From IMG/VR virus record IMGVR_UViG_3300050821_010313, positions 1 to 61,678 of that record: a stretch of DNA of 61,678 bases; one strand, given 5' to 3'. Made by a program: the position numbers and the translations under genes. Below are positions 25,751 through 59,146 of the stretch, piece after piece. Origin of the DNA: a virus. The notes below the pieces were generated by a model, which was not told the origin of the DNA, did not search any database, and saw only the letters and a list, made by a program, of their open reading frames with translations. Each line of letters starts with the position of its first letter. The stretch's first letter is position 1.

Positions 25751-25885
25751 GCCCGGATACTAAGCAGACCCCGTGCCAGGCCCTGCTCTACTCCAAGTGC
25801 CTGTAATCCTTACCTTCTCCCCTTTACATTTTCTAGGCTTGTCCTGATTTTGGTCAATACCCCTGCGCGTGGATGCTCCAGTGCC
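25751..25885 (-). promoter_or_regulatory. Promoter module A (sigma-54-like)
   Basis: Minus strand, reading toward the gene: box 1 CACTGGAGCATCCACGCG, box 2 GAAAATGTAAAGG about 30 bases on, and box 3 TGGCACGGGGTCTGCTTAG, where GG and GC are exactly 10 bases apart as in -24/-12 promoters. Box 3 ends a few bases from ATG. Boxes 1 and 2 lie where activator sites of sigma-54 promoters usually are. This is one of four related modules (also 55617, 57215, 59012). Confidence 0.65.
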
Positions 25886-26077
25886 TTTTTCTCGGACAAC
25901 TGTTTTGCGCTTGGGAGGAGATGCCCGCCGCGTTGTGAAGCCCAGGCGGTTTACTGCAAGAAAATCAGCTACCCCTATGAGGGGTGCGCGAGTTCCTGAC
26001 TCTCGGCCATGCTGCGCGTTGTCCGGCTGGCATAGAGAGCAGGGAGCCTGGGCAGCGCGCGACCCTCACCTCTCCGC
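25886..26077. other. Gap before the portal gene
   Basis: About 190 bases between module A and the portal start. I see no convincing ORF; a GGGAGGAG followed by ATG leads to only five codons. A rightward late promoter would be expected here but no sigma-70 or sigma-54 consensus is evident. Confidence 0.4.
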
Positions 26078-27853
26078 GTGGAAACCTCCGACTTCTTCCA
26101 GCCAGGGCGCCCGACGATGCGGCGATACCTGGAGCTGCCGATCACCACGCGGCATGCCTGGGATTCGTATGCGGTAGTGGACAGCGCCCTGGAGCAGCTG
26201 GAGCAGGGCCAGTTCCTCGAGGCGAGCCTCCTCACTGATGCCGTCTACACGGACGATCGAGTGATAGGTTGCCTCAGCACCCGGATCAACGGACTGTTCG
26301 GGCTCCCGCTGGACTTCAAGTATCCAGGCCAGGACGACGCGCATGGCAGTGCCAAGCCAGCGGACGACGACCAGGGGCAAGACGTCGCGACCGTCAAGGT
26401 TGGCGAGGAAAAGGATCCTCCTGAGGTGCTGGCCCTCAAGAAGGAGATCTGCGAACTGGCGGAAAAGAACTGGGAGAAGATGGTCCCGGGCGCTGCGGCG
26501 CGGGAGCAGGTCCGCTGGGGGATCATGTTGAACGCTGGCGTGGGCCAGCTTGAATGGGACTGGGGCCGCGATGGGCTCCTTTGGCCAACGCTGAAGACCT
26601 GGAACTCGCAGTGGATTTTCTGGCGCTGGGACACGCGCAGTTACTGGCTCAACCACGCGGACGGCACGAGCGAGATTCACCCGGGGGACGGCTGCTGGGT
26701 CCTCTTCGCGCCCAACGGCCACAACCACGGCTGGCTCTACGGGCTGATCCGTGCACTCGGCAAGCTTTGGCTCGATCGCATCTTCACCGTACGCGACTGG
26801 GCCCGGGCCTCGGAGAAGTATTCGCTGGGCATCCTCAAAGCGAAGGTGCCGGCCGGCTCGAACGCGGACGACAAGAAAGACTTCGTAGCGACCGTCACGA
26901 ACATGCCGAACGAGACGGTCGTCCTCTTGCCCCAGGGCGAGAAGGACCAGGGCTCCTTTGACCTGGAGATGATGGAAACGGACGCGATGACGCATCCGGA
27001 TTTCTTCCAGCTCCGGATTCATCAGCTCGACGTGTCGATCGCCGTGTGTCTGCTCGGGCAGAACCTTTCGACCGAGATTGAGAAGGGCGGAAGCCGAGCA
27101 GCGGCCCAGGTTCACGACAACGTGCGCGGCGACTTCCTAAAGGCTGACGACGAGGTGTGGTCGTCTATGGTCCGCACACAGATCCTCACGCCTTGGGTGC
27201 GTCACAACTGGGGCGACATCATCGAGTCAATGGGTCGCGAGGTGACGGAGTTCGTTCCTGAGGTGTGTCACACGGTGGACCCGCCCGAGGACCTGCAGAA
27301 GAAGGCGGACGCCATCCTGAAGATTGGGCAGGCGATCGAAGGGCTCGCAGGCACCGAGGCGGACATTCACGCGCTGCTTCAGCAGCATGGAATTCCGACG
27401 CTCGACGAGAAGGCCACGCCGCAGCGTCCACCTCCAGGCGCGGACGTCAATGAGCGCCCGCCCGCGCCCGGCGGCGTGGGCACGCCCCAGGATGACCCCG
27501 CGACCGCGCCGGGGAACGGGGACAGAGGCGCGCAGGCGATGGTCGATACGTCGTTGCGTCGTGCTCGCGGACCCATCACGAAGCCTGGACAGCGCAAGGG
27601 TCGTGTCTTTGCGGACGATCTCGTGGACGCCGCTGTGAAGGCGGGGGCCGCCGCGGTCGAAAGCCGGAAAAAGGCTCTGCTGCACATCGTTCAGACGGCC
27701 CGCGACTTCGACGTGATGAAGGAGCAGATCAAGGCCCTGTACTTTGATGCTCCTCCGTCAGAGCTGCGCGGCGTCGTAGAGAAGGCGATCGCTGCGGCCC
27801 AGTTGCTCGGGCACGCCTCGGCGCGGGTTGACCACAGAGAGGCCGGGAAGTGA
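26078..27853 (+). CDS. Portal protein (Mu gp29-like, DUF935)
   Basis: A 591-residue portal. LLGQNLSTEIEKGGSRAA followed by VHDNVRGDFLKADDEVW is the hallmark segment of the Mu gp29/DUF935 family, and the N-terminal half (LTDAVYTDDRVIGCLSTRI) matches the family's opening. The C-terminal 130 residues are a Pro-rich linker and helices. It forms the dodecameric DNA gate at one vertex, docks TerL and later the tail. A GTG start is used without a strong ribosome-binding site. The gene heads the long structural operon. Confidence 0.92.
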   Translation: METSDFFQPGRPTMRRYLELPITTRHAWDSYAVVDSALEQLEQGQFLEASLLTDAVYTDDRVIGCLSTRINGLFGLPLDFKYPGQDDAHGSAKPADDDQGQDVATVKVGEEKDPPEVLALKKEICELAEKNWEKMVPGAAAREQVRWGIMLNAGVGQLEWDWGRDGLLWPTLKTWNSQWIFWRWDTRSYWLNHADGTSEIHPGDGCWVLFAPNGHNHGWLYGLIRALGKLWLDRIFTVRDWARASEKYSLGILKAKVPAGSNADDKKDFVATVTNMPNETVVLLPQGEKDQGSFDLEMMETDAMTHPDFFQLRIHQLDVSIAVCLLGQNLSTEIEKGGSRAAAQVHDNVRGDFLKADDEVWSSMVRTQILTPWVRHNWGDIIESMGREVTEFVPEVCHTVDPPEDLQKKADAILKIGQAIEGLAGTEADIHALLQQHGIPTLDEKATPQRPPPGADVNERPPAPGGVGTPQDDPATAPGNGDRGAQAMVDTSLRRARGPITKPGQRKGRVFADDLVDAAVKAGAAAVESRKKALLHIVQTARDFDVMKEQIKALYFDAPPSELRGVVEKAIAAAQLLGHASARVDHREAGK

Positions 27854-27857
27854 GCAC

Positions 27858-28580
27858 GTGGCTGGCGATGGCGACGAGCCGCTCGACGAGTTCGACGATG
27901 CTCCACCCCTTGACGATGAGGATTTCCTCACGTCCGTTGACGCAATGCTGCAGCACCTCAAAGAGCTGATCCCGATGCCCGCCGAAGAGTTTGCACGCTT
28001 GGAAGAGATCGCGCACCAGCGCGCTTTCACCGTTGCGAACGTGGCAGACCTCGACCTGGTCTCGGACGTGTGGGAAGCCATTGACGCGGCCGTGCGGAAC
28101 GGCGAGACGCTGGAAGACTTCCGGGAGCGCGTCGGGCAGAAGCTCGCGGACGCTTGGGGTGGAGAGGATCCCTCGCACCTGGAGACGATCTTCCGGACGA
28201 ACGTGCACAGCGCCTACAGCGCGGGGCGCGCGTATCAGAACTCGCGCGTGAAAGACACGCACCCGTACCTACATTATTCTGTTGTGGACGACGACCGTAC
28301 CTCTGAGATTTGCGAGGACCTGATCGGCGTCACGCTGCCGCAAGACGACCCGTTCATCGCGACACACCAGCCGCCCCTCCACTACCGCTGCAGGACTGAC
28401 GTCGTCGCGGTCACTGAGGAAGAGGCACGCGAGTACGGAATCGATGAGGTCGCGCCAGACGTGGAGCCTGACGAGGGCTTTGGCGGAGACCCGCTTGGGG
28501 AGTTTGAGCCGGACCTGTCTACGCGCCCGGCCGAAGTGGCTTCGATCTACGAGCTGAAGCTCATAAAGGAGACCCAGTGA
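27858..28580 (+). CDS. Head morphogenesis protein (Mu gpF-like)
   Basis: About 240 residues. ETIFRTNVHSAYSAGRAYQ, the VVDDDRTSEICEDL segment and HYRCRTDVVAV form the typical core of the Mu F / SPP1 gp7 minor head family. It follows the portal gene as in Mu. A GTG at 27858 with GGAAG upstream is chosen; a TTG at 27828 would add ten residues and overlap the portal gene. It is a minor head protein, probably associated with the portal and ejected or internal. Confidence 0.88.
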   Translation: MAGDGDEPLDEFDDAPPLDDEDFLTSVDAMLQHLKELIPMPAEEFARLEEIAHQRAFTVANVADLDLVSDVWEAIDAAVRNGETLEDFRERVGQKLADAWGGEDPSHLETIFRTNVHSAYSAGRAYQNSRVKDTHPYLHYSVVDDDRTSEICEDLIGVTLPQDDPFIATHQPPLHYRCRTDVVAVTEEEAREYGIDEVAPDVEPDEGFGGDPLGEFEPDLSTRPAEVASIYELKLIKETQ

Positions 28581-28975
28581 GCCCTACCCTGGGACTTTGT
28601 CGTGGCTGTGATGCGCCTTTGCAGCACGAGAACGGTAGCGTCGCGGACGGGTGCCCGTGCAACTCACCTCGTGGCGTCAATCACGGGCTCGTGCCCGCGT
28701 CGGTATGCACGTGCACTGCTTGTGATCCTGCACAGGGCGGGTTCTCACGAGGGACCGCTGATCAAGGAAGGTCAAGCATGAGCAAGGAAGAGTTTCAGGA
28801 GTTCGTGGAAGGCGCCGCGAGCGGTCACGCTGAAGTGGCCGACATGCGCGACTCGATGAAGCTGGCCGAGGTCGCGACCTTTGATCCGAAGCTCGCCGCG
28901 CTGGTCGAGGACGTTTTCGCGTCCGTTGAGCGCGTCGGCAACTACTGCTCGGCGAAGCTGGAGCGCCCCGCGTAA
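28577..28975 (+). CDS. Hypothetical protein with Cys-rich N-terminus
   Basis: A 132-residue protein with GTG in a GTGA overlap. Residues 8-50 carry many cysteines (CRGCDAPLQ, DGCPCNS, CTCTACDP), suggesting zinc binding. The second half is a helical domain (KEEFQEFVEGAASGH...). The internal ATG at 28778 has its own AAGGAAGG site and may give a second product without the Cys region. Unknown function between F-like and I-like genes. Confidence 0.6.
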   Translation: MSPTLGLCRGCDAPLQHENGSVADGCPCNSPRGVNHGLVPASVCTCTACDPAQGGFSRGTADQGRSSMSKEEFQEFVEGAASGHAEVADMRDSMKLAEVATFDPKLAALVEDVFASVERVGNYCSAKLERPA

Positions 28976-30510
28976 TGCCGGTCGATTTCACAGGCTACGC
29001 GGGCCTCCTCCTCGTAGACCTCAAGGGCGGCGCTGAGGATGTGCCCTTTGAACCGCCAACTGAGTTCTGCATTTTCCGGTTCGGTAAGATCGAAACGGAC
29101 AAAGGGACTTTCTACTTCGACGAGAAGTGTGCGGACATGATCGTGGCGGATCGCGCGCGGCGGAACGCGCGGGTTCAGATCGATTACGATCACCTGGCGA
29201 TCAAGTCTGAGAAGCCTGGCGACGGTATCGCCGCGGGCTGGTGCGACGTCGAGAAGCGCGCGAGCGGCCTGTGGGCCGTGCATGTGAAGTGGACGCCGAA
29301 GGCATCCGACTTCCTGAAAAATGGTGAGTACGCGTCGATCTCCCCCTTCTTTGGTGCGACGAAGGACAGCAAGAAAATCGTTTGCTTGATGAACGTCGCA
29401 ATCACGAACCTGCCCGCGACGATCAAGTCCGAGACGCTGGTCGCGGCTTCTCGCCTCTACTTCGAGACCCTCTCTGATGGTGAGCCGGTCGGCGGGGTCC
29501 AGGCCATGATCAAGCACGAGGGCGGGAAGTTCGTCCTCTACACGAAGGACGGCTCAAAGAAAATCCCCGGTGGTGAGCACGCCACCGAGGCAGAAGCGAA
29601 GAAGCACGAAGCGGCGATCAACATCAGCAAGGCTCGCGATGCGGGCCACAAGATTCCCAAGGAGAGCACGTCAATGGCCCACAAGCTCGGCGGTTACCTC
29701 GCAGCGCGGATGAAGAAGGACGGCATGAGCATGAAGGCTCTTGCCGAGAAGTGCGGACTCAGCGAAGAGCGGCTGCGCGCTCTGCACGATGGCGAGGATC
29801 CCACTCCCGAAGAGATGAAGTCGATCGGCATGAAGGGTTTCGGCATGAAGGACGGCGAGATCGAGGAGTCTGTCGACACGCATCGCGCCTCGACCCTCGA
29901 CAACGACGGCCTAGATGACGACGGGGACGACGACGAAGACGACGAGGAAGACGCCGCGGACAAGAAGAAGATCGCCGCCGCTCGCCGCCGGATCGAAGAG
30001 CGCAAGGCGCGCAAGCCGGCCGCTCGGGCCTCGCAGCGCAGGGAGCAGGACGACGAGCTGTCGCTGGATCTCGTGGAGCTGACCGGCACCACTGACCGCG
30101 ACGAGCAGCGCCGGAAGCTCGCGGGCGTGTTCGCGATGGCGGAGCAGTTCGCCCCCGTCAAGAAGCAGCTCGATCAGATCACGGCGAAGCACGAGGAGAC
30201 GAAGCGCGAGTCCCTGATCAAGCAGGGCAAGGAAGACGGCAAGCTGACGCCGAGCCTCCTGCGCTTCTGGGCCAAGCGCTCTCTCGCGGAGTTCGAGGAG
30301 TTCCTCAAGAGCGCCCCGATCCTCTCCGTGGAGAATCTCTCTCTGCGCGAGGCTGAGTCCAGCCAGGCCGCTGCAGTGCTCACGCACGAGGAGATCGAGG
30401 TTTGCCGGCTCAGCAACACGCCGGTCGACACTGTCGCCAAGTTCGTGCAGGACGAGCGCTCCGGGAAGAACCGGGACGACATCCTGAAGACCTACCTCGT
30501 CGGCGCGTAG
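28975..30510 (+). CDS. Prohead protease/scaffold (Mu gpI-like) with inserted HTH domain
   Basis: A 511-residue protein. Residues 1-160 match the phage I-like protease (QIDYDHLAIKS with the His, GWCDVEKRASGLWAVHVKWT, YASISPFFGA with the catalytic Ser). Next comes a small HEGGKFVLYTKDGSKK domain often seen in phage protease/head proteins, then an XRE-like helix-turn-helix (SMKALAEKCGLSEERLRAL), an acidic run of Asp/Glu, and a helical scaffold domain ending KTYLVGA. It would cleave itself and the capsid scaffold during head maturation. The HTH insertion is unusual in this family. One-base overlap (TAATG) with the gene before. Confidence 0.85.
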   Translation: MPVDFTGYAGLLLVDLKGGAEDVPFEPPTEFCIFRFGKIETDKGTFYFDEKCADMIVADRARRNARVQIDYDHLAIKSEKPGDGIAAGWCDVEKRASGLWAVHVKWTPKASDFLKNGEYASISPFFGATKDSKKIVCLMNVAITNLPATIKSETLVAASRLYFETLSDGEPVGGVQAMIKHEGGKFVLYTKDGSKKIPGGEHATEAEAKKHEAAINISKARDAGHKIPKESTSMAHKLGGYLAARMKKDGMSMKALAEKCGLSEERLRALHDGEDPTPEEMKSIGMKGFGMKDGEIEESVDTHRASTLDNDGLDDDGDDDEDDEEDAADKKKIAAARRRIEERKARKPAARASQRREQDDELSLDLVELTGTTDRDEQRRKLAGVFAMAEQFAPVKKQLDQITAKHEETKRESLIKQGKEDGKLTPSLLRFWAKRSLAEFEEFLKSAPILSVENLSLREAESSQAAAVLTHEEIEVCRLSNTPVDTVAKFVQDERSGKNRDDILKTYLVGA

Positions 30511-30548
30511 GCCGGCACATCCACCCTTTCAACCTGAGGAACTGACCA

Positions 30549-31022
30549 ATGGCAGCCCTTTCCGCAAACCGACCCACTGACAAGAGCGGCGACAAAACGC
30601 TGCAGCAGCGCGTCCAGATCCCGATCGCTGACAACGTCCACATCTACCAAGGTGCGCAGGTGCAGATCAACGCTGCCGGATACGCGACCCCCGCCGGGAC
30701 CGCGACTCAGGCAGACTCGCACACCTTCCTGGCGCTCGGCCGCGCGTTCGAGGAGTACGACAACACTGTGACGGGCCACGCACAGGGTGCGCTCACCTGT
30801 GAGATCGAGCAGGGGTGTTTCCTCTGGGACATCCTTGCGAGCGATCCCGTGGCTCAGGCAAACGTCGGCGCGACCGTCTATGCCGAGGACGATCACACGA
30901 TCCGCGCGACCTCGAACGGCACCACGCGCGCCAGCGCGGGCCGGTTGCTCGCGCTCGTCTCGGTGTCGGAGTATTCCCCGGCGCTGCAGGCGCTCGTTCA
31001 GACCGTGGTCGGCGTTCCGTAG
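30549..31022 (+). CDS. Probable head decoration/cement protein
   Basis: A 157-residue protein with beta-rich, Gly/Ala-rich sequence (VHIYQGAQVQINAAGYATP, GATVYAEDDHTI), resembling DUF2190-type capsid cement proteins that lie between protease/scaffold and major capsid genes. GAGGAAC lies seven bases before ATG. The identification rests on position and style, not on a decisive motif. Confidence 0.6.
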   Translation: MAALSANRPTDKSGDKTLQQRVQIPIADNVHIYQGAQVQINAAGYATPAGTATQADSHTFLALGRAFEEYDNTVTGHAQGALTCEIEQGCFLWDILASDPVAQANVGATVYAEDDHTIRATSNGTTRASAGRLLALVSVSEYSPALQALVQTVVGVP

Positions 31023-31064
31023 GCCGACTGACGATCCCCATCCCCGAACTGAGGACAAACTCAA

Positions 31065-32018
31065 ATGGAACTCACCCCCGGCAATCTCTCTGCGCTGCGC
31101 ACCAAGTACAGCCAGATCTTCCAATCGACATTCATCAACACGAACATCGTGTGGCCGAAGCTCGCGCAGCTCGTGCAGAGCGGCGCCGAGTCCGAGACCC
31201 ACGTGTGGGAAGATCGCATCCCGCAAGTTCGCCAGTGGGTCGGCGATCGCATCATCCGGAACGCCTCGCTGCGCTCCTACGTCCTGGCCAACCTCCCGTT
31301 CGAGCACACGCTCGGGCTGGACGTGTTCAAGGTGAAGGACAACAAGATCAACGCATTCGAGCCCACGGTTCGCATGCAGGCGATGGCGGCGAAGAAGTGG
31401 CCTGACATCCTGATCTTCGACAGCGTGAAGGGTGTGCTGGCGCAGGGGGCGACCTCAGCGGCCGTCACCTACGACAACGTGCCGTTCTTCTCGCAGTCGC
31501 ACCCCGTCAACATGGACAACCCCGCGAGCGCGCTGCAGAGCAACTACTACCCGAGCGGGTTCCCGCTCACGCACGCGAACTTCTCCGCGGTGCGCGAAGG
31601 CCAGCGCGCGCTGGTCGGCGCTGACGGGCTGCCGCTCGGCGTCAATCCGAACGTGCTGATCGTCGGTCCCGAGAACGAGCAGGCTGGGAAGCAGATCCTC
31701 GAAGCCGAGTGGATCACCCCTACCGGCACCTTTGCCGCGACCGGGAACCAAGGCCCCAGCCAGAACGTGCTGAAGGGCACCGCCGAGCTGCTGGTGGTCG
31801 ACGAGCTGGCGGGCAACGGCGGTCAGTGGTACCTGGCCGACTACAAGAAGCCGGTCAAGCCGCTGATCTTCCAGCTCCGCGAGGCTGCGCAGTTCGTGAT
31901 GCGCGTTCGGCCGGATGATGAGCCGGTGTTCGCGCGGCACGAGTTCCAGTACGGCGTCACCATGCGAGGCAACGCGGGGTATGGCCCGTGGTTCCTCATG
32001 GCCGCCGCGCATCCGTAG
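31065..32018 (+). CDS. Major capsid protein (Mu gpT-like)
   Basis: A 317-residue protein. Characteristic stretches of the Mu gpT family are present: WEDRIPQVRQWVGDRI near residue 50, FEHTLGLDVFKVKDN, FFSQSHPVNMDNP (cleaved or processed region), and RPDDEPVFARHEFQYGV near the end. It follows protease and cement genes as in Mu-like phages and builds the icosahedral head. GAGGACA precedes ATG. Confidence 0.93.
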   Translation: MELTPGNLSALRTKYSQIFQSTFINTNIVWPKLAQLVQSGAESETHVWEDRIPQVRQWVGDRIIRNASLRSYVLANLPFEHTLGLDVFKVKDNKINAFEPTVRMQAMAAKKWPDILIFDSVKGVLAQGATSAAVTYDNVPFFSQSHPVNMDNPASALQSNYYPSGFPLTHANFSAVREGQRALVGADGLPLGVNPNVLIVGPENEQAGKQILEAEWITPTGTFAATGNQGPSQNVLKGTAELLVVDELAGNGGQWYLADYKKPVKPLIFQLREAAQFVMRVRPDDEPVFARHEFQYGVTMRGNAGYGPWFLMAAAHP

Positions 32019-32092
32019 GCGACCGCTGACCAAGAACCTTGGGGCGTCGCCGGTACGCGGGCGCCCTCCTCGAACAAGAAGGAACACCTACC

Positions 32093-32644
32093 ATGAAACG
32101 GATCATCTTCCTCGCAGTTCTCGCGCTCGGCATGTTCGCTTACGCAAGCGACTACATGGCCGCGACATTTTCCCAGGTCGGGGCCGGCACTAACGGGATG
32201 ACCTCGGCTGCGCCCGCACTGGCTACCGACGGCATCGCGGTGCAATCGAAGCTCAACACCGTCTCCACGGACGGTCGCTGCTCCGCGCTCCTGGCTATCG
32301 TCACGGTTGAGGCTTCGTCTGGAAACAAGTTCGTCACTTCCGCGACTCAGGGTTACGAGCGCGGTTGGGTCTACTTGCCGAACCCTGACGGTGGTGCAGC
32401 TGCGTGGTCGGCGATGCCCTCGATGGACATCGCGATCGATGCCGGCACTCTCGGCGGGCAGGGTGGGGCATCCAGCATCTCGATCCCTGTCGTGCTCTCT
32501 TCGCTGCAGAGTGGTCGAGTTGTGGCGCTGCAAGGTGCCGGAGCCCGCGTGATGTGGCAGGCCGAGAATATTTCCCAGAGCAACACCCTTGACGCCGGAA
32601 CGTTCCTGGGCGTCCAGTTGTTCGCCCCCTCTTCCTGCCCGTAG
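32093..32644 (+). CDS. Exported hypothetical protein within the head module
   Basis: A 183-residue protein beginning with a typical Sec signal peptide (MKRIIFLAVLALGMFAYA then SDYMAA). The remainder is beta-rich and Gly/Ser-rich, with two Cys. AAGGAA precedes ATG; a longer upstream frame was rejected. A signal peptide on a protein encoded directly behind the major capsid gene is unusual; it may instead be a head protein with a hydrophobic start. Two other genes in the tail region share the feature. Confidence 0.7.
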   Translation: MKRIIFLAVLALGMFAYASDYMAATFSQVGAGTNGMTSAAPALATDGIAVQSKLNTVSTDGRCSALLAIVTVEASSGNKFVTSATQGYERGWVYLPNPDGGAAAWSAMPSMDIAIDAGTLGGQGGASSISIPVVLSSLQSGRVVALQGAGARVMWQAENISQSNTLDAGTFLGVQLFAPSSCP

Positions 32645-32666
32645 GCAGAGAAAGCAAGGTCCAGCA

Positions 32667-33311: not shown

Positions 33312-33314
33312 TCC

Positions 33315-49683: not shown

Positions 49684-49684
49684 A

Positions 49685-50077
49685 ATGTTCGCCTACTCAA
49701 TCTCATCCGGGAAACTGTTTTTCGATGGCGCGTTGAGAGGCCAGGGCTATGCAGGCGCCCCGTCGGGAAAAAACAATCCGCTGATGTGCCCGATCCACAA
49801 CGTGGGGCCCATCCCCTGCGGCGCGTGGACGATCGAAGGCCCTCCCCAGGACACGCCGACTCACGGCCCCTTCGTTTTGCACCTGGAGCCCAAGGCGGGC
49901 ACGAACACTTTTGGCCGCGCCGGCTTCCTCATGCACGGCGACAACATGAGCGATCCCGGTAACGGGTCTGAGGGCTGCATCGTGATGGCTCGTCCTGTGC
50001 GTGAGTTCGTTTGGAGTTCGGGATGTGCTGATCTCCTCGTTGTCGCCTCAGATGACCAGTTGCCTAGCGCGTGCTAG
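49685..50077 (+). CDS. Tlde1-type peptidoglycan enzyme (DUF2778), probable endolysin
   Basis: A 130-residue protein. SISSGKLFFDG, YAGAPSGKNNPLM, GPIPCGAWTIEGPP, GRAGFLMHGDNMSD and SEGCIVMAR follow the order of Tlde1/DUF2778 domains, whose L,D-transpeptidase-like site uses the His in MHGD and the Cys in GCIVM. Bacterial Tlde1 toxins act on peptidoglycan; here behind a holin-like gene it is the best endolysin candidate, an uncommon one. An AAACTGTTT palindrome overlaps codons 10-13. No strong ribosome-binding site; it may depend on coupling. Confidence 0.8.
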   Translation: MFAYSISSGKLFFDGALRGQGYAGAPSGKNNPLMCPIHNVGPIPCGAWTIEGPPQDTPTHGPFVLHLEPKAGTNTFGRAGFLMHGDNMSDPGNGSEGCIVMARPVREFVWSSGCADLLVVASDDQLPSAC

Positions 50078-50089
50078 AAGGGCTTGGAC

Positions 50090-50311: not shown

Positions 50312-50347
50312 TCTCCTTCACCTCTTTTCGGAAAGGAAGTTCCTCAC

Positions 50348-51716: not shown

Positions 51717-51726
51717 GAGATCCCCC

Positions 51727-52212: not shown

Positions 52213-52227
52213 GGCATCTAAGACCAT

Positions 52228-53598
52228 ATGGCGAAATGTTCGAGACTGGAGTGTACGCGCGAAACGGTCCCCCCTTTCAGGAAGTGTCCGCGCTGTAGGG
52301 AGATCTCGCGGACGTGGCTGAGCGCACGCCGCAAGAAGCTCCGCGAGGCTCAGGCGAAACTCTTCTCCCCTGAGAACGCCCCGGAGAAGCCCCTCACCCT
52401 AGGCGACGCGCTCCAGGCGTTGGGCGTGTCGGGGGCTGCGCCCGAGATTCCTGAGTTCGAGATCACGGAGGTAGCCCCTTCGGCCCCCCCGCCCCCGCCC
52501 GCCTCTCTTGAGCCCGCAGTTCCCCCGCCCACTCGCGAAGAGCGGACGCGTGAACAGCTCCTGATCGCGCGCCTGAAGCAAGAGAAGGCCCAGCTCGCGG
52601 AGCGCGTCCGGGACCTGGAGCAGCTCGCTCTTTCTGGTGATAGCGTGCGCGAGTTCGTCGGCTCCCTCGGTGCCCCGAACGTTCAAGCTAACCCCGACTG
52701 GCTCAAAGGCGCATCCGAGAAACGCAGCGTCACAGGCACGGCTGTACTGTTCATCTCAGACATTCACTTTGACGAGGTAGTGTCGCGTGCGCAGGTCAAC
52801 GGCTCGAACGAGTACAATCGCGAAATTGCCGTGCGGCGGATCAAGAACACTTTCCGTTCCGCGATTGTCCTGCTGAAAGCCTTTATGGCCTCACCCCGGT
52901 ACGAAGGCATCGTCTGTCCACTCGGCGGGGACTTGCTCTCCGGGAACATCCACGAAGAGCTGCAAATGACGAACGAGGCGCCGATCCAGGTCTCGGCGAT
53001 GGCTTTAGAGCCACTGCTGATCGAAGGCCTGGGCGGGCTCGCCGACGAGTTCGGCCGCGTGCACGTGCCGTGTGTGACGGGCAACCACGGGCGCATGACG
53101 CGCAAACCCCAGGCGAAGAACCGAGCCTTTGAGAATTTCGAGTGGCCGATCTACCAGCGCTTGGCGGCCTACTTCGCGAAGGATCCTCGGTTCACGTTCG
53201 ACATCCCCGCGGGGCCTGACGCGTTCTTCAACGTCTACGACAAACGTTTCTGCTTGAGCCACGGGGACCAGGCCAAGGGCGGCGACGGCGTCGGCGGTAT
53301 CGCCGTGCCCCTCGGGCGCTGGCTCTTGCGCAAGCAGATGAAGCAGCAGGCGATGGGGGATCCCTTCGACATCCTCATGTGCGGCCACTGGCACACGCTG
53401 ATGCACCTTTCGAACTTGATCGTCAACGGCTCAATCAAAGGAACCGACGAGTGGTCATCCGCGATGAACTTTGCGCACCAGGAGCCGGAACAAGCGCTCT
53501 TCGTCGTGCACCCCGAAATGGGTGTAACCGCGCGCTGGCCGATCAAATGCGACAGAGAAGGCGGCAAGGCCCGAGCTTTGCGCGAGGCAGGCACGTAA
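52228..53598 (+). CDS. Metallophosphoesterase with zinc-ribbon N-terminus
   Basis: A 456-residue protein. First 30 residues: CSRLECTRET...CPRC, a zinc ribbon. Then a Pro-rich linker, a coiled coil (QEKAQLAERVRDLEQLAL), and a calcineurin-like phosphoesterase: ISDIHFDE, PLGGDLLSG, GNHGRM, SHGD, CGHWHT are the five metal-site motifs in order. Related phage enzymes act on nucleic acids or nucleotides. The zinc ribbon suggests a nucleic-acid substrate. No neighbour is obviously related. Confidence 0.88.
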   Translation: MAKCSRLECTRETVPPFRKCPRCREISRTWLSARRKKLREAQAKLFSPENAPEKPLTLGDALQALGVSGAAPEIPEFEITEVAPSAPPPPPASLEPAVPPPTREERTREQLLIARLKQEKAQLAERVRDLEQLALSGDSVREFVGSLGAPNVQANPDWLKGASEKRSVTGTAVLFISDIHFDEVVSRAQVNGSNEYNREIAVRRIKNTFRSAIVLLKAFMASPRYEGIVCPLGGDLLSGNIHEELQMTNEAPIQVSAMALEPLLIEGLGGLADEFGRVHVPCVTGNHGRMTRKPQAKNRAFENFEWPIYQRLAAYFAKDPRFTFDIPAGPDAFFNVYDKRFCLSHGDQAKGGDGVGGIAVPLGRWLLRKQMKQQAMGDPFDILMCGHWHTLMHLSNLIVNGSIKGTDEWSSAMNFAHQEPEQALFVVHPEMGVTARWPIKCDREGGKARALREAGT

Positions 53599-53622
53599 CC
53601 CCAAGGTGTCGAGGTGTCCCCC

Positions 53623-53919
53623 ATGATCCGAAGTCTGTTCTTTGTGCTCTGTCTCGGCCTGGCTGTCCAGGAAAGCGGCGGCTGTGGCTGTGCGACCGTG
53701 CCCCCTCCCGTGCCAGAGGGCCGGCTCGTGCGTGTGAAAATCAAGCCGGGCGCGGACAAGGTTCCCGCATTGGCCTGTGACGTGCGCGAGGAGCCTTGGC
53801 TTTGCGTCTCCTACGGGAGCACGATCGCGCTCACGCTCGCGCACCTGAGCGACGACCGTCTCTCGGACCTGCTCGAAGAAGTCTCGGAGTTGCGCCAGGC
53901 TCAGAAGGAGGCGCCGTGA
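53623..53919 (+). CDS. Small exported/membrane protein, possible spanin part
   Basis: A 98-residue protein with an N-terminal signal segment (SLFFVLCLGLAVQESGGCGCA), possibly a lipobox Cys, a short Pro-rich linker and a C-terminal helix (DRLSDLLEEVSELRQAQ) that resembles coiled-coil spanin tails. The next gene also encodes a lipoprotein, so a spanin pair is conceivable. The homology is not clear. Confidence 0.55.
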   Translation: MIRSLFFVLCLGLAVQESGGCGCATVPPPVPEGRLVRVKIKPGADKVPALACDVREEPWLCVSYGSTIALTLAHLSDDRLSDLLEEVSELRQAQKEAP

Positions 53920-54476
53920 TGCGCCGGCTTCTCGCAGCACTTTTGCTCTGCACGAGCTGTGCGTCTCTGCCGCAGGCGGCACCCCAGCTCTTGCCCAAGG
54001 CCCCACCCCCCTACGCAAAAGCTCGGTGCGTCACGGCCTGTGGCCTGCGCGGCGACTTCGACCCGGGACAGTGTGCGGCCCTGAACGGTGCAGAGGCCCG
54101 GGTGATTCAGATCTACGCCCAGCACGTTTCCGAGTTCCGGCCCGGATATGCGAGCTGCATGGCCCTCGACGGTTGGACCGTCAAGATTGTTTCCGTGGAC
54201 AAGAAGCGTGACGCTAAGTGCCCGGCCATCGCGTGGCAGGATCTGATCCTCGGTTGCGTCCTCGGGGAGACGCACCCGGACACCAAGACGATCGAACTGC
54301 GGGACGACGTGTTTACCTTCAACGCCTTCGCCCATGAGATCGGCCACGTCCTCGATGCGCACTACGGCACCGAGCAGGGCGTAGAGCATTGCGGCTGGAC
54401 TCCGCGCGGGCTCAAGACAGCCATCCTCAAAGCGACCGGGGAGCCTGACCGTTCCCCGGAAAACTGCGCGCTCTAG
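53919..54476 (+). CDS. Secreted lipoprotein with HExxH zinc-metallopeptidase motif
   Basis: A 185-residue protein. Signal peptide ends in a lipobox-like LLLCTSC, giving a membrane lipoprotein. Mature part holds CVTACGLRGDFDPG and, near residue 145, AFAHEIGHVLDAHYG, the HExxH zinc site of zincin peptidases, with the third ligand possibly the later E/H. ATG overlaps the previous stop by one base (TGATG). A phage-encoded exported metallopeptidase is rare; it could help lysis or cleave a host surface protein. Confidence 0.75.
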   Translation: MRRLLAALLLCTSCASLPQAAPQLLPKAPPPYAKARCVTACGLRGDFDPGQCAALNGAEARVIQIYAQHVSEFRPGYASCMALDGWTVKIVSVDKKRDAKCPAIAWQDLILGCVLGETHPDTKTIELRDDVFTFNAFAHEIGHVLDAHYGTEQGVEHCGWTPRGLKTAILKATGEPDRSPENCAL

Positions 54477-55025
54477 CCCCATTGCTCGGCCATTGCTTGC
54501 GCGATGCCGGGTAGCGTGCGAGACCTTCTCTTCCAGCGGTCAGGTCCGGGGGCTTCCCAGAACACGCGGGGCTCGCGTCCTTTGACGATGTTCGTAGGCT
54601 GAAGCAACGGCAGGTTCTTCAGCCACAGTGACGTTGCCTTCGTCTCGCCATGCCCGAACTGCCAAGGCTGGATAGTTTGATCTGCCTTGCGTATTGCTGT
54701 GCCGATTTTTCCTGGCGGGTTTTCCAGTGCAATGCGCGGGATCGGTGCGGCGAGGAGCAAGCGTACGAAGTCTAACGACTCCTCCTGCTCTCTCTCTCTC
54801 TCTCCCTTTCCACCAACGCGCGCCGGCACGGGTCAACAACGTGCACGGCGGATGCACGATCATTAGGTCCCAACCGAGCCCGAGCACCAAGCGAACGTCA
54901 GTCTGGTAGTGGAACAACGGGTCCCCTTCTGAGGGCAGGAGATCACAGGAGTAGGCGTTATGCCCCCGTGCTCGGAACGCGTCGCGCACTTTAGCAGAGA
55001 ACTCGCATCCAACAAGAACTCTCAC
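54473..55025 (-). pseudogene. C5-methyltransferase-like gene, frame broken at an (AG)8 tract
   Basis: Two frames together give one protein. The upstream frame reads VRVLVGCEFSAKVRDAFRARG (C-x-x-F-S, SAM-loop like) and HPPCTLLTRAGARWW, with the PPC motif of cytosine methyltransferase-like proteins; the downstream frame continues ESLDFVRLLLAAPIPRIALEN, WQFGHGETKATSLWL, FPGIAQAMAEQWG-like end. The switch lies at an (AG)8 tract (CT on plus, 54788-54803). One more AG would restore the frame. It is therefore either phase variable or a mutation or sequencing error. GTG start in a GTGA overlap. Confidence 0.7.
54788..54803 (-). repeat. (AG)8 dinucleotide tract in a coding region
   Basis: Sixteen bases of alternating A and G (CT on the plus strand) at the junction of two frames of one gene. 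Lengths of 6 or 9 units would keep the full-length frame. Such tracts are hot spots of slipped-strand mutation. Confidence 0.9.
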
Positions 55026-55213
55026 AGTCTGCCATCCCCCAGCAGAATCACCTCGGGCAGGGCTGTACGCACCTTCTCCGCCTCGACCGCCTCCAAGGTG
55101 AGCAACACGCACAGCTCATAGACGGCGTCCGTGTTGGTGAGGTCCTTCATCAACTCTCGAGCAGCGCGGACCACGGCAGCCTGAGCGGCCGCGTGGCTTT
55201 CCTGGAGGCTCAC
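55022..55213 (-). CDS. Small hypothetical protein
   Basis: A 63-residue helical protein (AAVVRAARELMKDLTNTDAVYE, LLTLEAVEAEKVRTAL). GTGA overlaps on both sides. Function unknown. Confidence 0.6.
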   Translation of the reverse strand: MSLQESHAAAQAAVVRAARELMKDLTNTDAVYELCVLLTLEAVEAEKVRTALPEVILLGDGRL

Positions 55214-55422
55214 GGCGTCTCCTTCCCTTCCAAGGCCCGGCACACCTTCACTCGTTGCCAGCCGATGGCATCGGCCGCGAGCGCCAGTACGCCCGTGGGG
55301 ATGTCCGAGGGAAGCTCGGAAGCCGCCTTTATCAGGTCAGCGAGGATCCGCGCCTCGCGCGCGGCCTCGTGGTTCGTCTCCTTCAGGAGCTTGCCCAGGA
55401 TGGGGAGGGTTATGTCGTTCAC
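55210..55422 (-). CDS. Small hypothetical protein
   Basis: A 70-residue helical protein (LGKLLKETNHEAAREARIL, ADAIGWQRVKVCRALEG). GTG start with GAGGAG nine bases upstream, in the end of the preceding gene. Function not recognised. Confidence 0.6.
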   Translation of the reverse strand: MNDITLPILGKLLKETNHEAAREARILADLIKAASELPSDIPTGVLALAADAIGWQRVKVCRALEGKETP

Positions 55423-55424
55423 GG

Positions 55425-55616
55425 TCAGATCTCCTCGCCCTTCGGGCAATAGACGTTGGTGGCGCGCAGGCAACGGCCGCCTTGCGGGCGGTCGTGGTCG
55501 CGCATAAAGCCGTTGTAATCGCGGTTCCACGTGACGGCTCCACAGAACTGGCAGCGGCTGCGGTCGTCCTTCCCGTTCGGGTTTCCTTGAAGCACGGTGT
55601 GATTGTTCTTGTTCAT
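55425..55616 (-). CDS. Small zinc-binding protein, first gene behind module B
   Basis: A 63-residue protein with CQFCGAVTWNRDY, then a C and a YCPK set, a C-x2-C...C...C arrangement that should bind zinc. It starts MNKNN, 14 bases after the -12 element of module B, and has no ribosome-binding site. Function unknown. Confidence 0.65.
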   Translation of the reverse strand: MNKNNHTVLQGNPNGKDDRSRCQFCGAVTWNRDYNGFMRDHDRPQGGRCLRATNVYCPKGEEI

Positions 55617-55750
55617 GCCCGTACCTAAAGCACTCCTCGTGCCGTGTGCCCAAAACAGTTAAGGCACTGGATCTCCTCAAGCATTCCCTTTACAGTTTCG
55701 GGTCGCTGTCCCGGTCTTGAACAAACACCCCGCGCGCGGATGCTCCAGTG
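55617..55750 (-). promoter_or_regulatory. Promoter module B (sigma-54-like)
   Basis: Same three boxes as module A: CACTGGAGCATCCGCGCGC, then CCGAAACTGTAAAGGG, then ACGGCACGAGGAGTGCTTTA (GG-N10-GC) close to ATG. An AACTGTTTT half-palindrome lies between boxes 2 and 3. Confidence 0.7.
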
Positions 55751-55762
55751 TTCTAACCCAGG

Positions 55763-56134
55763 TCACTTTGCCCGGACAGCTCCTCCGGTCTCGGAATTGC
55801 ACCGGGCGCAGGCCGGGCGGATGTTGTCGCGCGTGTACCGGCCCCCGCGGCAGCCGGGGATGATCCGGTCGACGGTCATCTCGACGAGCGTCAGCAGCTT
55901 GCCACAGCGCCAGCAGCGTACGGCGTCAAGGTCCATGGCGACGGGATTGTAGAAGTTCCAGCGCCGAGCCCGACGGTTCGCGCGCCAGTTCTTCAGCAAC
56001 CACAGCCGGCGCGCCAGCCTGTCGCGTGTGTTGCCCCGGACGTTCCTATTTGAGGTGCCCCTCAGGACAGCACCAGGTGCACTAGGTTGGCCAGGGCCGT
56101 GCCTACCATCAGGCCGATGCACAGGCCCAGCCAC
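55763..56134 (-). CDS. HNH endonuclease
   Basis: About 120 residues; the N-terminus is uncertain (GTG at 56134 has no ribosome-binding site, and a CTG nearer TSNRNVRGNTRD may be used). HNH motif: CWRCGKLL, EMTVDRIIPGCRGG, NIRPACARCNSETGG. The conserved TVDRIIPG and CNSETGG are typical of short phage HNH proteins next to terminase or replication genes. It could nick DNA in packaging or be a homing nuclease. Confidence 0.75.
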   Translation of the reverse strand: MAGPVHRPDGRHGPGQPSAPGAVLRGTSNRNVRGNTRDRLARRLWLLKNWRANRRARRWNFYNPVAMDLDAVRCWRCGKLLTLVEMTVDRIIPGCRGGRYTRDNIRPACARCNSETGGAVRAK

Positions 56135-56169
56135 AGCTCGAAGCGCCTCGGGTCAGCGAAAGTCTTCAT
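56062..56169 (-). CDS. Tiny membrane protein
   Basis: A 35-residue protein, a single helix (WLGLCIGLMVGTALANLV) with a charged N-terminus (MKTFADPRRFE). GGAGG lies seven bases before ATG, and its start is directly behind the previous gene. It overlaps the presumed start of the HNH gene. Confidence 0.55.
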   Translation of the reverse strand: MKTFADPRRFELWLGLCIGLMVGTALANLVHLVLS

Positions 56170-56392
56170 AGGCATCCTCCTGGGCCTCGTCAACGAGCGT
56201 GTCCGTGTGGTCTCCCGCAGCTGCACAGGCAGAGCATGTGACGAAGTAGGCGCCTTCTTGGGACTCGTCTTTCACGGGCTCGCCGCAGTTGCTGCACGTC
56301 AACTCGACTTTGCGGGGCCTGTACCGCGCGAGGCGGTCCTCGTGGTTCTCGATGATGTCCCCGATCGGGCCCAAGGGGTTGTAAGGGTTCAC
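56153..56392 (-). CDS. Small zinc-ribbon protein
   Basis: A 79-residue protein starting with GTG in a GTGA overlap. ELTCSNCGEPVKDESQ and FVTCSACAAAGD give a C-x2-C...C-x2-C ribbon; the tail is acidic (DEAQEDAYEDF). Likely binds zinc and nucleic acid or protein. Not assigned. Confidence 0.65.
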   Translation of the reverse strand: MNPYNPLGPIGDIIENHEDRLARYRPRKVELTCSNCGEPVKDESQEGAYFVTCSACAAAGDHTDTLVDEAQEDAYEDFR

Positions 56393-56628
56393 GGCAGTTT
56401 GCTCCTCGCCGCAGCGTCGCGGCCCTCGGGGGTGATCTTCGCAACTCGCCCGACGACTCCGGGCCACGTGGTCTTGACGTAGCCACGCGCCTCCAGGACC
56501 TTGACCGTGCGCGCCCAGCTCGACCAGCGCTGATTTGCTTGCGTGGGTGTGTCGATTCCCCAGGCGTTGGATGCGGCCCGGCGAAGCAGGGAGACTTGGG
56601 GGCGGGTGAGGGGCTTGGGGGCTTTCAT
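56389..56628 (-). CDS. Probable winged-helix protein
   Basis: A 79-residue protein from ATG in an ATGA overlap. LTRPQVSLLRRAASN, RWSSWARTVKVLEARGYVKTT and VAKITPEGRDAA follow a winged-helix pattern (recognition helix TVKVLEARGYV, wing TPEG). Possible small DNA-binding regulator; resembles many phage proteins. Confidence 0.6.
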   Translation of the reverse strand: MKAPKPLTRPQVSLLRRAASNAWGIDTPTQANQRWSSWARTVKVLEARGYVKTTWPGVVGRVAKITPEGRDAAARSKLP

Positions 56629-56978
56629 CGCAGAGGCTCCGTTGACCCGTAGGAGCACGGGGGCACGACCGAGAGCGGTTCGGTCAAAGGGCGCACGGCG
56701 TCTTCCCAGGTCAGATTCTCGCAGACCCAGTGCGCGGGTACGCGGCTGTGCCAGTCGCGCGGGCTGATCTTGTCCAGCATCTTGAAAATCTGGGCATCGA
56801 CGCGGCGAATTGCGGAGCGCTTGCGGTCAAGCGCTTTGCGCTCCGTGTTCGATATCCACGAATCCCAGCCGGGCGCCCAACCATAGCGGCTTCCTAGGGT
56901 GCGCTCCAGCGATCCGAACGCATCCGCTGCCGAGTCTTTACGTGCGTGCAGCGCGTCCCAGCGCTCGCGGGCGTTCAT
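56625..56978 (-). CDS. Conserved phage protein of unknown function
   Basis: A 117-residue protein (MNARERWDALHARKDSAADAF... ISPRDWHSRVPAHWVCENLTWEDAV). The ISPRDW...P-x-H-W motif and the C-terminal VPPCSYGST are features of a widespread phage family without known function. Overlaps the genes on both sides as ATGA. Confidence 0.7.
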   Translation of the reverse strand: MNARERWDALHARKDSAADAFGSLERTLGSRYGWAPGWDSWISNTERKALDRKRSAIRRVDAQIFKMLDKISPRDWHSRVPAHWVCENLTWEDAVRPLTEPLSVVPPCSYGSTEPLR

Positions 56979-57214
56979 CGCGTGAAACCCTGCCACGAGC
57001 AAGCGGCGCCGGTCAGGTCGCGGCGGAAGCCCTCGGCCCCGCTACGGTCGCACCGAACCCAGCCGGTCAGCGCCAGGTTCTGGTGCACGCCCGCGCCGCA
57101 AGCCGGGCACTTGTTTGAGGTCACAGCCTGGCACGCTTCAGCTTGCGCCGCCGCGATCCGCGCCGCCGAAGCCTTCCGATCCGCCGCTCGCTGCCGTCTG
57201 GTTTGAAGGTCCAT
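56975..57214 (-). CDS. Small zinc-binding protein, first gene behind module C
   Basis: A 79-residue protein with an Arg/Ala-rich helix (RRQRAADRKASAARIAAAQ) and cysteines CPACGAG, C, C that may form a zinc site. It starts 14 bases after the -12 element of module C; a longer ORF upstream is part of the promoter region. Function unknown. Confidence 0.65.
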   Translation of the reverse strand: MDLQTRRQRAADRKASAARIAAAQAEACQAVTSNKCPACGAGVHQNLALTGWVRCDRSGAEGFRRDLTGAACSWQGFTR

Positions 57215-57350
57215 GTCCAGAGATAAAGCACTCCTCGTGCCAAAGTCCAAAATAGTTTAAGTGCCTGAATCTTCTAGGACGGATCCTTTACATTTTCCGG
57301 AACTGTTTCAGGAGAGGACGAAGCCCCCTGCGCCTCCCTGCTCCAGTGTC
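57215..57350 (-). promoter_or_regulatory. Promoter module C (sigma-54-like)
   Basis: Boxes as in A, B and D: CACTGGAGCAGGGAGGCGC (most diverged), CGGAAAATGTAAAGG, and TTGGCACGAGGAGTGCTTTA (GG-N10-GC). A near palindrome AAACTATTT lies between boxes 2 and 3. Confidence 0.7.
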
Positions 57351-57356
57351 CTGAAA

Positions 57357-57716
57357 TCAAACAATCTTGGCGCCTCTGGCCAAAGGTGCCCCGGCCGCCT
57401 CCAGCTCTTCCTGAGCCAAAGCGAGGGCACGCCAGGCAACCTTTACAGAGTGGAGAACGCCGTCTGTATCCCGCGTGCCCCGGTCCATCAAATGCCGCAC
57501 AATGCAGTCTGCGTGATCAGTGCTCTTCCCCCGCGCGTGGTGTAGGGGCTCACCCGGGTTGTGCTGCTCGTTGCCCACTCGGGACAGTTCGGCAACTGCG
57601 GCCAAAGCCGCTGGGAAATAGTCCAAAACCCCGCGCACGATCGGGATGTCCTTCCGGGCCTTGGGGTCCTCAGGGAGGGCGTGCTCCTTTTTGGGGCTGA
57701 CATGTTTCTTTTTCAT
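57357..57716 (-). CDS. dATP/dGTP diphosphohydrolase-like protein (DUF5664)
   Basis: A 119-residue protein. RKDIPIVRGVLDYFPAALAAV, followed by VAELSRVGNEQHNPGEPL, HARGKSTDHADCIVRHLMD and VKVAWRALALAQEEL, matches the N-terminal domain pattern of phage dATP/dGTP diphosphohydrolases (DUF5664), a MazG-like helical fold. It would adjust dNTP pools during phage DNA synthesis. ATG at 57716 is in an ATGA overlap. Confidence 0.75.
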   Translation of the reverse strand: MKKKHVSPKKEHALPEDPKARKDIPIVRGVLDYFPAALAAVAELSRVGNEQHNPGEPLHHARGKSTDHADCIVRHLMDRGTRDTDGVLHSVKVAWRALALAQEELEAAGAPLARGAKIV

Positions 57717-57823
57717 CGAGCACGCTCTCTCGCCGGGGCCGTCAGCCACTCGGCGAGCTTGGGGTTTGTGAAACAGAAACTGTTCACCATCTGGTGGAAT
57801 CGTCGCACGGTATAGGGGATCAC
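57713..57823 (-). CDS. Small hypothetical protein
   Basis: A 36-residue protein (GTG start; ends PAPARERAR-like). It is locked between two neighbours by a GTGA and an ATGA overlap, which is why I accept it. Contains TVRRFHQMVNSFCFTNPKLA. Function unknown. Confidence 0.5.
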   Translation of the reverse strand: MIPYTVRRFHQMVNSFCFTNPKLAEWLTAPARERAR

Positions 57824-58560
57824 GACGCCGCCTTGACGAGTTTGCCTTGATCGTTGAGCTTGTACTTCGTGTTGGGTAGAACGCCGTCCTCACCGACGTA
57901 GAAAACACCGATCCGGTAACGCTTTCCGTCCCACCACCGAAGCGTCAGGATTCCCGCCTCGCCCGCGGTCGCCGTGCCGTAGTTGCCCGCGGTCGCCGTG
58001 CCCGCGTAGCCCGCGGTCGCCGTGCCTCTGTCGCCCGCGGTCGCCGTGCCGTAGTTGCCCGCGGTCGCCGTGCCGTAGTTGCCCGCGGTCGCCGTGCCCG
58101 CGTAGCCCGCGGTCGCCGTGCCCGCGTAGCCCGCGGTCGCCGTACCCGCGTAGCCCGCGGTCGCCGTACCCGCGACGATGATCGTCCCTGTCGGTGCGCG
58201 CGCGGCGACCATCTTCACGGCGTCGTCTCGCTTGCCGCAGAAGACCACTGTCCCGCGCGGGAACTTGACCTTCTGATCGTCGATCTTCACGACCTCGGAA
58301 GTGAGCACCTCGACGACGAGCCAGCGCGCGTCCTCGCTCCAGTTCAAGAGGTTTCCCGCGCCCGCGCCCCAGAGGAGCCCGTGCAGGCCGTGCCCGCACT
58401 CGGGCTTTGGGTCCCAGTCGAGGGCCCTAACCTCACCCTTCTCGGGCCACTGGAAACCGTTGAAAGACTTTCCTTCCGCGTCCGTCGTCCGGAGAATGAG
58501 AACAGTTGCCGGCTTCTTTTTCGAAGTCTTTTTCACAGGAACTCCCTTGGAGAGTTTCAC
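57820..58560 (-). CDS. Phage repeat protein (DUF7666-like, GTATAG repeats)
   Basis: A 246-residue protein. Residues about 15-120 resemble the phage domain with SFNGFQWPEKGEVRALDWD, GHGLHGLLWGAG and VVEVLTSEVVKIDDQKV. A block of nine 8-residue repeats GTATAG(Y/N/D/E)(A/Y/R) follows, then a C-terminal strand set (ILTLRWWDGKRYRIGVFYV). GTG in a GTGA overlap. Repeats of this kind occur in phage proteins that may coat surfaces, but a role is not known. Confidence 0.7.
   Translation of the reverse strand: MKLSKGVPVKKTSKKKPATVLILRTTDAEGKSFNGFQWPEKGEVRALDWDPKPECGHGLHGLLWGAGAGNLLNWSEDARWLVVEVLTSEVVKIDDQKVKFPRGTVVFCGKRDDAVKMVAARAPTGTIIVAGTATAGYAGTATAGYAGTATAGYAGTATAGNYGTATAGNYGTATAGDRGTATAGYAGTATAGNYGTATAGEAGILTLRWWDGKRYRIGVFYVGEDGVLPNTKYKLNDQGKLVKAAS
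57961..58176 (-). repeat. 24-bp tandem repeat array (coding)
   Basis: Nine 24-bp units encoding eight-residue GTATAG-x-x repeats. The first 17-18 bases of each unit are nearly identical and the rest vary, as expected for a slippage-driven array under protein-level selection. Confidence 0.9.
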
Positions 58561-58778
58561 GCCGCACCCACCCTTGCCCGAACCACGCGCCCCTCTACCT
58601 CGACCTGCCAGCCGATTTGGGAGAAGAAGCACGCCAGCTCCAGCGCATCCTCGTCGCGGAGCATCTTGATACGGGTCTCGGCGTCGACCCAGCCGCAGGA
58701 GAGGGACTCGAAGAAGAGGCCCAGCTCTTTGAGCTTGGCGGCGATCATTTGAGCGGCGGGGGATTGGGGGCTGGTCAT
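58557..58778 (-). CDS. Hypothetical protein
   Basis: A 73-residue protein, ATGA/GTGA overlaps on both sides. Helix (AAKLKELGLFFESL), a DAETRIKMLRDEDALELA section and a beta end (QVEVEGRVVRARV). Function unknown. Confidence 0.6.
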   Translation of the reverse strand: MTSPQSPAAQMIAAKLKELGLFFESLSCGWVDAETRIKMLRDEDALELACFFSQIGWQVEVEGRVVRARVGAA

Positions 58779-59011
58779 GGGGTCTCCCTACGAAAGTTTG
58801 CGTTCAGCTCGCGGACCTTCTCCAGCACGTGGTGCATGTCTCCCACGTGCCCGTAATGAATCTTCGCGAGCTTCCCGTCGGGCATTGCGCCGTGCGCTTT
58901 CACGTGGAGGACCAGCTCCTCGATTGCGTGCAGCGCCTCTGTCTTCGCTGTAGCGTAAGCAGCCGCAGCTGGGCGAGTGATGCCGGATCCTGGTTTTTGG
59001 GTCGAGTTCAT
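58775..59011 (-). CDS. Hypothetical protein, first gene behind module D
   Basis: A 78-residue protein with helices (AYATAKTEALHAIEELVLHV, HHVLEKVRELNANF) and several His. It starts MNSTQK, 15 bases after the -12 element of module D, without a ribosome-binding site. Function unknown. Confidence 0.65.
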   Translation of the reverse strand: MNSTQKPGSGITRPAAAAYATAKTEALHAIEELVLHVKAHGAMPDGKLAKIHYGHVGDMHHVLEKVRELNANFRRETP

Positions 59012-59146
59012 AACTAGAGTACTAAGCAGCCCTCGTGCCACGGTCGCTAGTGCGTAGACCTAAACAGTTTCGGGCGCTTACCTCTTTACATTTTCCCGGG
59101 GTGTCTCAGGTTAGGACGGACACCCCGCGCGCAGATGCTCCACTGT
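59012..59146 (-). promoter_or_regulatory. Promoter module D (sigma-54-like)
   Basis: The same three boxes: CAGTGGAGCATCTGCGCGC, CGGGAAAATGTAAAGAGG, and CGTGGCACGAGGGCTGCTTA (GG-N10-GC). Contains a perfect AAACTGTTT palindrome at 59062-59070 between boxes 2 and 3. Confidence 0.7.

Follow-up and report, generated by a model that had tools for sequence, protein, structure and literature searches.

The IMG/VR viral record IMGVR_UViG_3300050821_010313, analyzed whole as a single window of 61,678 bases, carries on its minus strand four related intergenic modules, each placed directly in front of a short open reading frame (ORF). The gene-proximal element of every module, box 3, has the layout of the -24/-12 promoters read by RNA polymerase containing σ54 (RpoN), and the best available reading, which we consider probable though far from assured, is that the modules are promoters of this type. 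They would then represent four copies of one RpoN-type promoter that may well switch on four small phage operons jointly. As a rule, phage promoters are σ70-like or depend on polymerases or sigma factors of the phage itself, and the arrangement described here, if real, would be an uncommon means of activating a set of phage genes. No report of σ54-driven phage operons was found in a limited search of the open-access literature.

Architecture of the modules and the -24/-12-like element

A first-pass annotation had placed the modules at 25751-25885, 55617-55750, 57215-57350 and 59012-59146, and reading and aligning the four regions bore out these positions on the minus strand. Each module is bounded on one side by the ATG of a minus-strand ORF and on the other by a stop codon or by the portal gene at 26078, which is divergent. 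The upstream ends first assigned, however, fall 13-15 bp short: the modules reach approximately 150 bp upstream of the ATG, because an imperfect TGTCC-N7-GGACA dyad sits beyond those ends. Across these ~150 bp the spacing is constant within 1-2 bp, although much of what lies between the conserved elements has diverged. Counted from the A of the ATG, the TGTAAAG of box 2 starts at -78 or -79, and the first G of the box 3 GG lies at -27 or -28. The core of box 1, situated between two dyads, and box 2 equal box 3 in conservation, and in three of the four modules ATGAAC(TC) at the gene start belongs to the conserved block, despite the unrelated proteins encoded there. An inverted repeat, GGGGTGTC...GACACCCC, occurs in module 4 alone.

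The modules are unique within the window. Weight matrices constructed for each box recover the four module places only, with nothing close in score: the modules reach 33-37 bits for box 1 (next match, 19 bits), 24-27 bits for box 2 (next match, 15 bits, a second AAACTGTTTAGG within module 4) and 24-27 bits for box 3 (next match, 12 bits). Similarly, GAAAATGTAAAGG is found four times at up to two mismatches against an expectation of 0.40, a count reached in none of 100 shuffles. The modules have no match to a known RNA family at the Rfam gathering threshold.

The resemblance to σ54 promoters is carried by box 3. Its GG and GC are 10 bases apart, and in register, in all four modules, as the first-pass annotation had it, and GGCACG and TGC are likewise invariant. 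In the sequence proposed earlier, TGGCACG(A/G)GG-N2-TGCTT, the first base needs correction for the copy at 55628-55644, which has CGGCACG. The variable columns (the bases before GG, base 8 and bases 11-12) fall mostly at positions that vary in known σ54 sites; PMC4591121, in the numbering of its own motif, gives positions 3, 4, 14, 15 and 16 as important and positions 1, 8, 9, 10 and 12 as unimportant. Compared with TGGCACG-N4-TTGCW, three modules have one mismatch and one module has two. First-order Markov sequence of the same composition would be expected to hold 0.74 sites that match TGGCACGN4TTGCW with at most one mismatch on both strands of the whole window, and 1.8e-4 per 30 positions upstream of a start codon.

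An independent weight matrix was derived from the 42 intergenic, sense-oriented E. coli σ54 chromatin immunoprecipitation sites printed in PMC4591121, with the modules left out. This matrix ranks modules 3, 1 and 4 second, fourth and fifth of ~123,000 window positions, at 12-13 bits. Among the top five positions, these three modules alone have an ATG just downstream. Additionally, no σ70-like site is present in 54000-61678.

Upstream dyads, predicted transcription starts and the operons served

Two imperfect TGTCC-N7-GGACA dyads flank box 1 in each module, and their centers lie at -140/-141 and -98/-99 from the A of the ATG in all four, 42-43 bp or about four helical turns apart. At up to two mismatches, seven of the eight dyads match TGTCCN7GGACA; sites of this quality are expected 28.8 times per 61.7 kb. 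Activator sites are often located ~70-150 bp upstream of σ54 promoters (PMC3844500), and the position of the dyads at such a distance is suggestive, adding some weight to the assignment of box 3. The constant spacing amid diverged sequence is more striking than the symmetry of the dyads.

The C of the -12 GC lies 14, 14, 14 and 15 bases before the A of the ATG, again as first annotated. Transcription would be predicted to begin 12 bases past this C, at a purine in every module (G, G, A and G) located 2, 2, 2 and 3 nucleotides (nt) before the ATG. By this geometry the mRNA would be near-leaderless, as proposed in the first pass. The absence of a Shine-Dalgarno (SD) sequence also held, in that none of the four first genes has a conserved one. 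An SD core of at least four bases precedes 14 of 32 confident phage genes, compared with 2 at control positions, and none of the four first genes; the chance of the latter is ~0.1, and the difference is hence weak. SD cores are found at downstream genes of the operons (58557, 57820, 56389, 56153 and 55210). The first genes may be translated in leaderless fashion.

The four first genes are unrelated, with no paralogy beyond ATGAAC, and the set thus resembles a regulon of four operons. At 54.5-59 kb the small operons are set apart from one another by modules 2-4; the genes that module 1 serves form a cassette, which is inserted between those for terminase and portal. One control sequence has thus come to precede different genes.

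We propose that host RNA polymerase with σ54 would bind box 3, and that an activator would bind the two dyads at -141 and -98 from the ATG and drive open-complex formation via looping. As the phage contig yielded no activator gene, this protein is most likely encoded by the host. The box 1 core and box 2 would act as additional protein-binding elements. With transcription starting at the purine 2-3 nt ahead of the ATG, the first gene would be translated from a nearly leaderless mRNA, and several downstream genes of the operons from SD sites. If this is true, dependence on RpoN would tie expression of the phage operons to ATP-driven, signal-gated host activators, which could inform the phage of nitrogen status, membrane stress or development, and the near-leaderless starts would constitute a natural test of leaderless translation under σ54. 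The proposal in its full form, in which a phage regulon of four operons would be run wholly by RpoN and an enhancer-binding protein of the host, would sense the physiological state of the host through that activator and would be coupled to near-leaderless mRNAs, is a tentative one that we lean against.

The first-pass annotation had called for a search for an AAA+ enhancer-binding protein gene; neither such a gene nor one for RpoN was found in the contig, which is truncated at both ends. Both ends cut genes, and the activator gene could therefore lie outside the contig. If the promoter is of the σ54 type, its activator is either a host protein or encoded in the missing sequence. For a T7-type RNA polymerase, no PF00940 match was obtained in the contig, and control genomes gave no match either.

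Table 1. Positions of the module elements and of the first gene behind each module.
Feature	Coordinates	Strand	Description
Box 3, module 1	25762..25778	-	-24/-12-like element TGGCACGGGGTCTGCTT
Box 3, module 2	55628..55644	-	CGGCACGAGGAGTGCTT, weakest match
Box 3, module 3	57226..57242	-	TGGCACGAGGAGTGCTT
Box 3, module 4	59024..59040	-	TGGCACGAGGGCTGCTT
Box 2, module 1	25821..25833	-	GAAAATGTAAAGG; between putative activator sites and promoter
Box 2, module 2	55687..55699	-	GAAACTGTAAAGG
Box 2, module 3	57285..57297	-	GAAAATGTAAAGG
Box 2, module 4	59083..59095	-	GAAAATGTAAAGA
Box 1 core, module 1	25859..25885	-	TGGAGCA-N5-GCGC-N-GGGG; between two dyads
Box 1 core, module 2	55726..55752	-	box 1 matrix
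Box 1 core, module 3	57324..57350	-	box 1 matrix
Box 1 core, module 4	59121..59147	-	box 1 matrix
Dyad 1, module 1	25882..25898	.	TGTCC-N7-GGACA type, center -140
Dyad 2, module 1	25840..25856	.	center -98
Dyad 1, module 2	55749..55765	.	center -141
Dyad 2, module 2	55707..55723	.	center -99
Dyad 1, module 3	57347..57363	.	center -141
Dyad 2, module 3	57304..57320	.	center -98; weak, 3 mismatches
Dyad 1, module 4	59144..59160	.	perfect TGTCC-N7-GGACA, center -141
Dyad 2, module 4	59102..59118	.	center -99
First gene, module 1	25415..25750	-	111 aa, no family; in terminase-portal cassette
First gene, module 2	55425..55616	-	63 aa, cysteine-rich
First gene, module 3	56975..57214	-	79 aa, CxxC zinc-ribbon-like
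First gene, module 4	58775..59011	-	78 aa; then 58557-58778, 57820-58560, 57357-57725

The proposed σ54 assignment and its alternatives

Several observations weigh against a σ54 promoter. Because the four copies share ancestry, their resemblance to such promoters is one event rather than four independent ones; allowing for about ten recognizable promoter types, we estimate the chance of this one event at about 1/100. Module 2, in which C replaces the T ahead of GG, reaches only 5.1 bits in the E. coli matrix, less than any of the 42 training sites (minimum 8.4), and would not be called by itself. The scores of 12-13 in the other modules fall short of the 10th percentile of the E. coli sites (14.0), in part owing to their GC-rich spacers, and the best-scoring position in the window is not a module. 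The E. coli σ54 sites of protein genes are at least 18 nt from the gene (PMC4591121, Table 1), which makes a distance of 2-3 nt atypical. The best dyad symmetry was reached in 32 of 200 column shuffles, and as the symmetry of a single dyad is not significant alone, we call the dyads suggestive. No Sigma54_activat, Sigma54_DBD or Sigma70_r2 domain is encoded in any frame of the contig. The σ54-like promoter of the first-pass annotation nonetheless emerges as the best-supported reading, given the spacing, the conserved bases and the high E. coli matrix ranks of three copies, with module 2 the weak member of the set.

An alternative that we judge unlikely, though worth serious attention, is a phage-specific regulatory repeat, in which boxes 1-3 and the dyads would be sites for a phage or host regulator working with another form of polymerase (σ70 polymerase with a phage activator, for example) and box 3 would merely resemble a -24/-12 element. 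Conservation peaks in box 1 and box 2, neither of which σ54 requires, and the GG at box 3 positions 9-10 is invariant without a σ54 reason. Phages are known to carry start-associated repeats of unassigned function (SAS/ESAS of Cluster K mycobacteriophages, PMC3203893), and at the head of the early region is a candidate helix-turn-helix (HTH) protein (16629-17099; weak match to HTH_24/HTH_IclR, E ~0.1). A TTGACC-N18-GAAAAT site (9/12) overlies dyad 2 and box 2 of module 1, but this σ70-like site is absent from the other three modules. Furthermore, a -24/-12 site with at most one mismatch has a chance of ~2e-4 of falling in the 30 positions upstream of an ATG, and the E. coli matrix agrees with σ54 for three copies. 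A σ70 reading of box 2, or of TAGTAT in module 1, was rejected as not common to all modules, and a GCAC-GAGGA-GTGC hairpin in box 3 was rejected as formable in modules 2 and 3 only.

It is improbable, in our view, that the promoters are of the σ54 type and yet not near-leaderless, with true start codons further downstream or a polymerase that starts later, and ATGAAC an initially transcribed part of the promoter. Conservation of ATGAAC(TC) among unrelated proteins could reflect promoter rather than coding sequence; the first genes have weak coding scores, and a coding-based gene caller placed the starts of genes 1 and 4 further downstream and left 56975-57214 without a gene. The only other starts in the vicinity, codon 6 of gene 1 and the GTG at 58903, are however not common to the modules, nor are they preceded by a conserved SD. 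We find it very hard to credit that the modules are recently duplicated non-promoter sequence, from a recombination hot spot or a cargo-carrying mobile insertion, that resembles a promoter by chance. Module 1 does lie in a mobile-cassette-like group of unassigned genes between terminase and portal; yet every copy stops precisely at an ATG, with the orientation the same in all four, and the spacing is maintained while much of the sequence in between diverges, and no matching downstream or terminal repeat was noticed.

The phage and comparison with known systems

The record is linear and lacks end repeats. Its ends do not join, with a methyltransferase gene cut at 61678 and a different gene cut at position 1, and part of the sequence is therefore missing. 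The plus-strand genes at 26-46 kb are collinear with those of Myxococcus phage Mx4 (OK085710), with identities of 33% (portal), 39% (head morphogenesis), 41% (protease), 39% (capsid) and 36% (sheath) and matches among the baseplate proteins as well, which indicates a contractile-tailed phage with a Mu-like head. The closest capsid genes in genomes are at most 37% identical and are spread over many phyla. Replication genes occupy the minus strand at 0.5-16 kb (DNA polymerase A, a helicase-primase-like protein, a PD-(D/E)XK nuclease and methyltransferases), and small minus-strand genes of unassigned function occupy 54.5-61.7 kb.

Several other features of the window were recorded. The terminase large subunit (21027-23660, plus strand) has an intein-like insert near its N-terminus, in the Walker A region (LLDVNTKIPV...AMIPTHN|S), with a LAGLIDADG_3 match (E 1.6e-7) and a first residue that is apparently Leu, not Cys. 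The Mu-like prohead protease (28975-30510, plus strand) has a C-terminal segment (residues ~205-283) with similarity to Cro/C1-type HTH proteins (PHROG 7241, E 2.9e-5), which is odd for a head protein. A Tlde1-domain protein (49685-50077, plus strand; E 2.2e-8), of a family related to L,D-transpeptidases, follows the tail genes and is possibly lysis-related. Short tandem repeats, GTATAGYAGTATAGNYG and GNAQVFGDAQVYGDARVYG, are present in the minus-strand proteins 57820-58536 and 12900-13292, respectively. The HTH gene at 16629-17099 (minus strand) has at its start TTGCAT-N17-TATACT-N6-ATG, a σ70-like arrangement that would also be leaderless. Upstream of it, 17100-17800 is noncoding and AT-richer, with two 33-nt copies of TTGTAAAnnATTTACAAGAGnTTTTGTAAATCT and a repeated GGGGAACAT, and is possibly an operator or origin.

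The search for the same boxes in related phages, also called for in the first pass, yielded no close relative and no second phage bearing the module. The module is absent from all ~400 viral or prophage loci and records compared, including relatives traced by their capsid (G002-G007 and others), prophages of GTDB genomes and 80 loci retrieved with gene 57357-57725. Megablast of window positions 36000-60000 against INPHARED phages gave no match, and scans of viral contigs (box 1; box 2 plus 3; box 3 plus ATG; strict box 1) returned chance matches only. The compared loci hold 86 sites within one mismatch of the consensus in 10.2 million strand-bases; when loci fetched with the box 3 pattern are excluded, three sites, one of them in L065, have an ATG at near-leaderless distance and an ORF of at least 40 codons. 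Two -24/-12 sites before an ATG were dropped: one in L065, which lies within an ORF, and a perfect one in L184, an 88.8-kb contig, which is the sole perfect match of that contig and lies within an ORF readable from an upstream GTG. Locus L224, from a phage with early genes in common with the window, shares a polymerase (34%) and the 57357-57725 gene (83%) and carries an unrelated repeated palindrome instead of the module (GCCGAT-N9-ATCGGC, seven copies at up to two mismatches, 712-15345). TGGCA(C/T)-like...TTGC(A/T) sites were seen in clusters, on each of the strands, at G014:C1:23677-24810 and G015:C1:190263-195108, in the contigs of L187 and L189, two viral contigs that are unrelated.

Mx4 resembles the window in its collinear Mu-like contractile-tail structural genes, and has neither the module nor a site within one mismatch of box 3. 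The SAS/ESAS of Cluster K mycobacteriophages (PMC3203893) resemble the modules as a repeated conserved element just upstream of the starts of unrelated small genes, accompanied in roughly half of the cases by additional inverted-repeat elements upstream. Unlike the modules, SAS is GGGATAGGAGCCC and has a different upstream layout; the window contains three two-mismatch sites for GGGATAGGAGCCC against 1.6 expected, none of them in a module. With bacterial σ54 promoters (TGGCACG-N4-TTGCW; PMC4591121, PMC3844500) the modules share the GG-N10-GC register, the TGGCAC and TGC(T/A) bases, a purine at the predicted +1 and, in their paired dyads 42-43 bp apart, candidate sites at activator distance. 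They differ in being located in a phage, in four copies, with no activator gene found in the contig, in a predicted start 2-3 nt before the ATG, and in their invariant box 1 core and box 2. The modules would thus present a known promoter class in an unexpected place.

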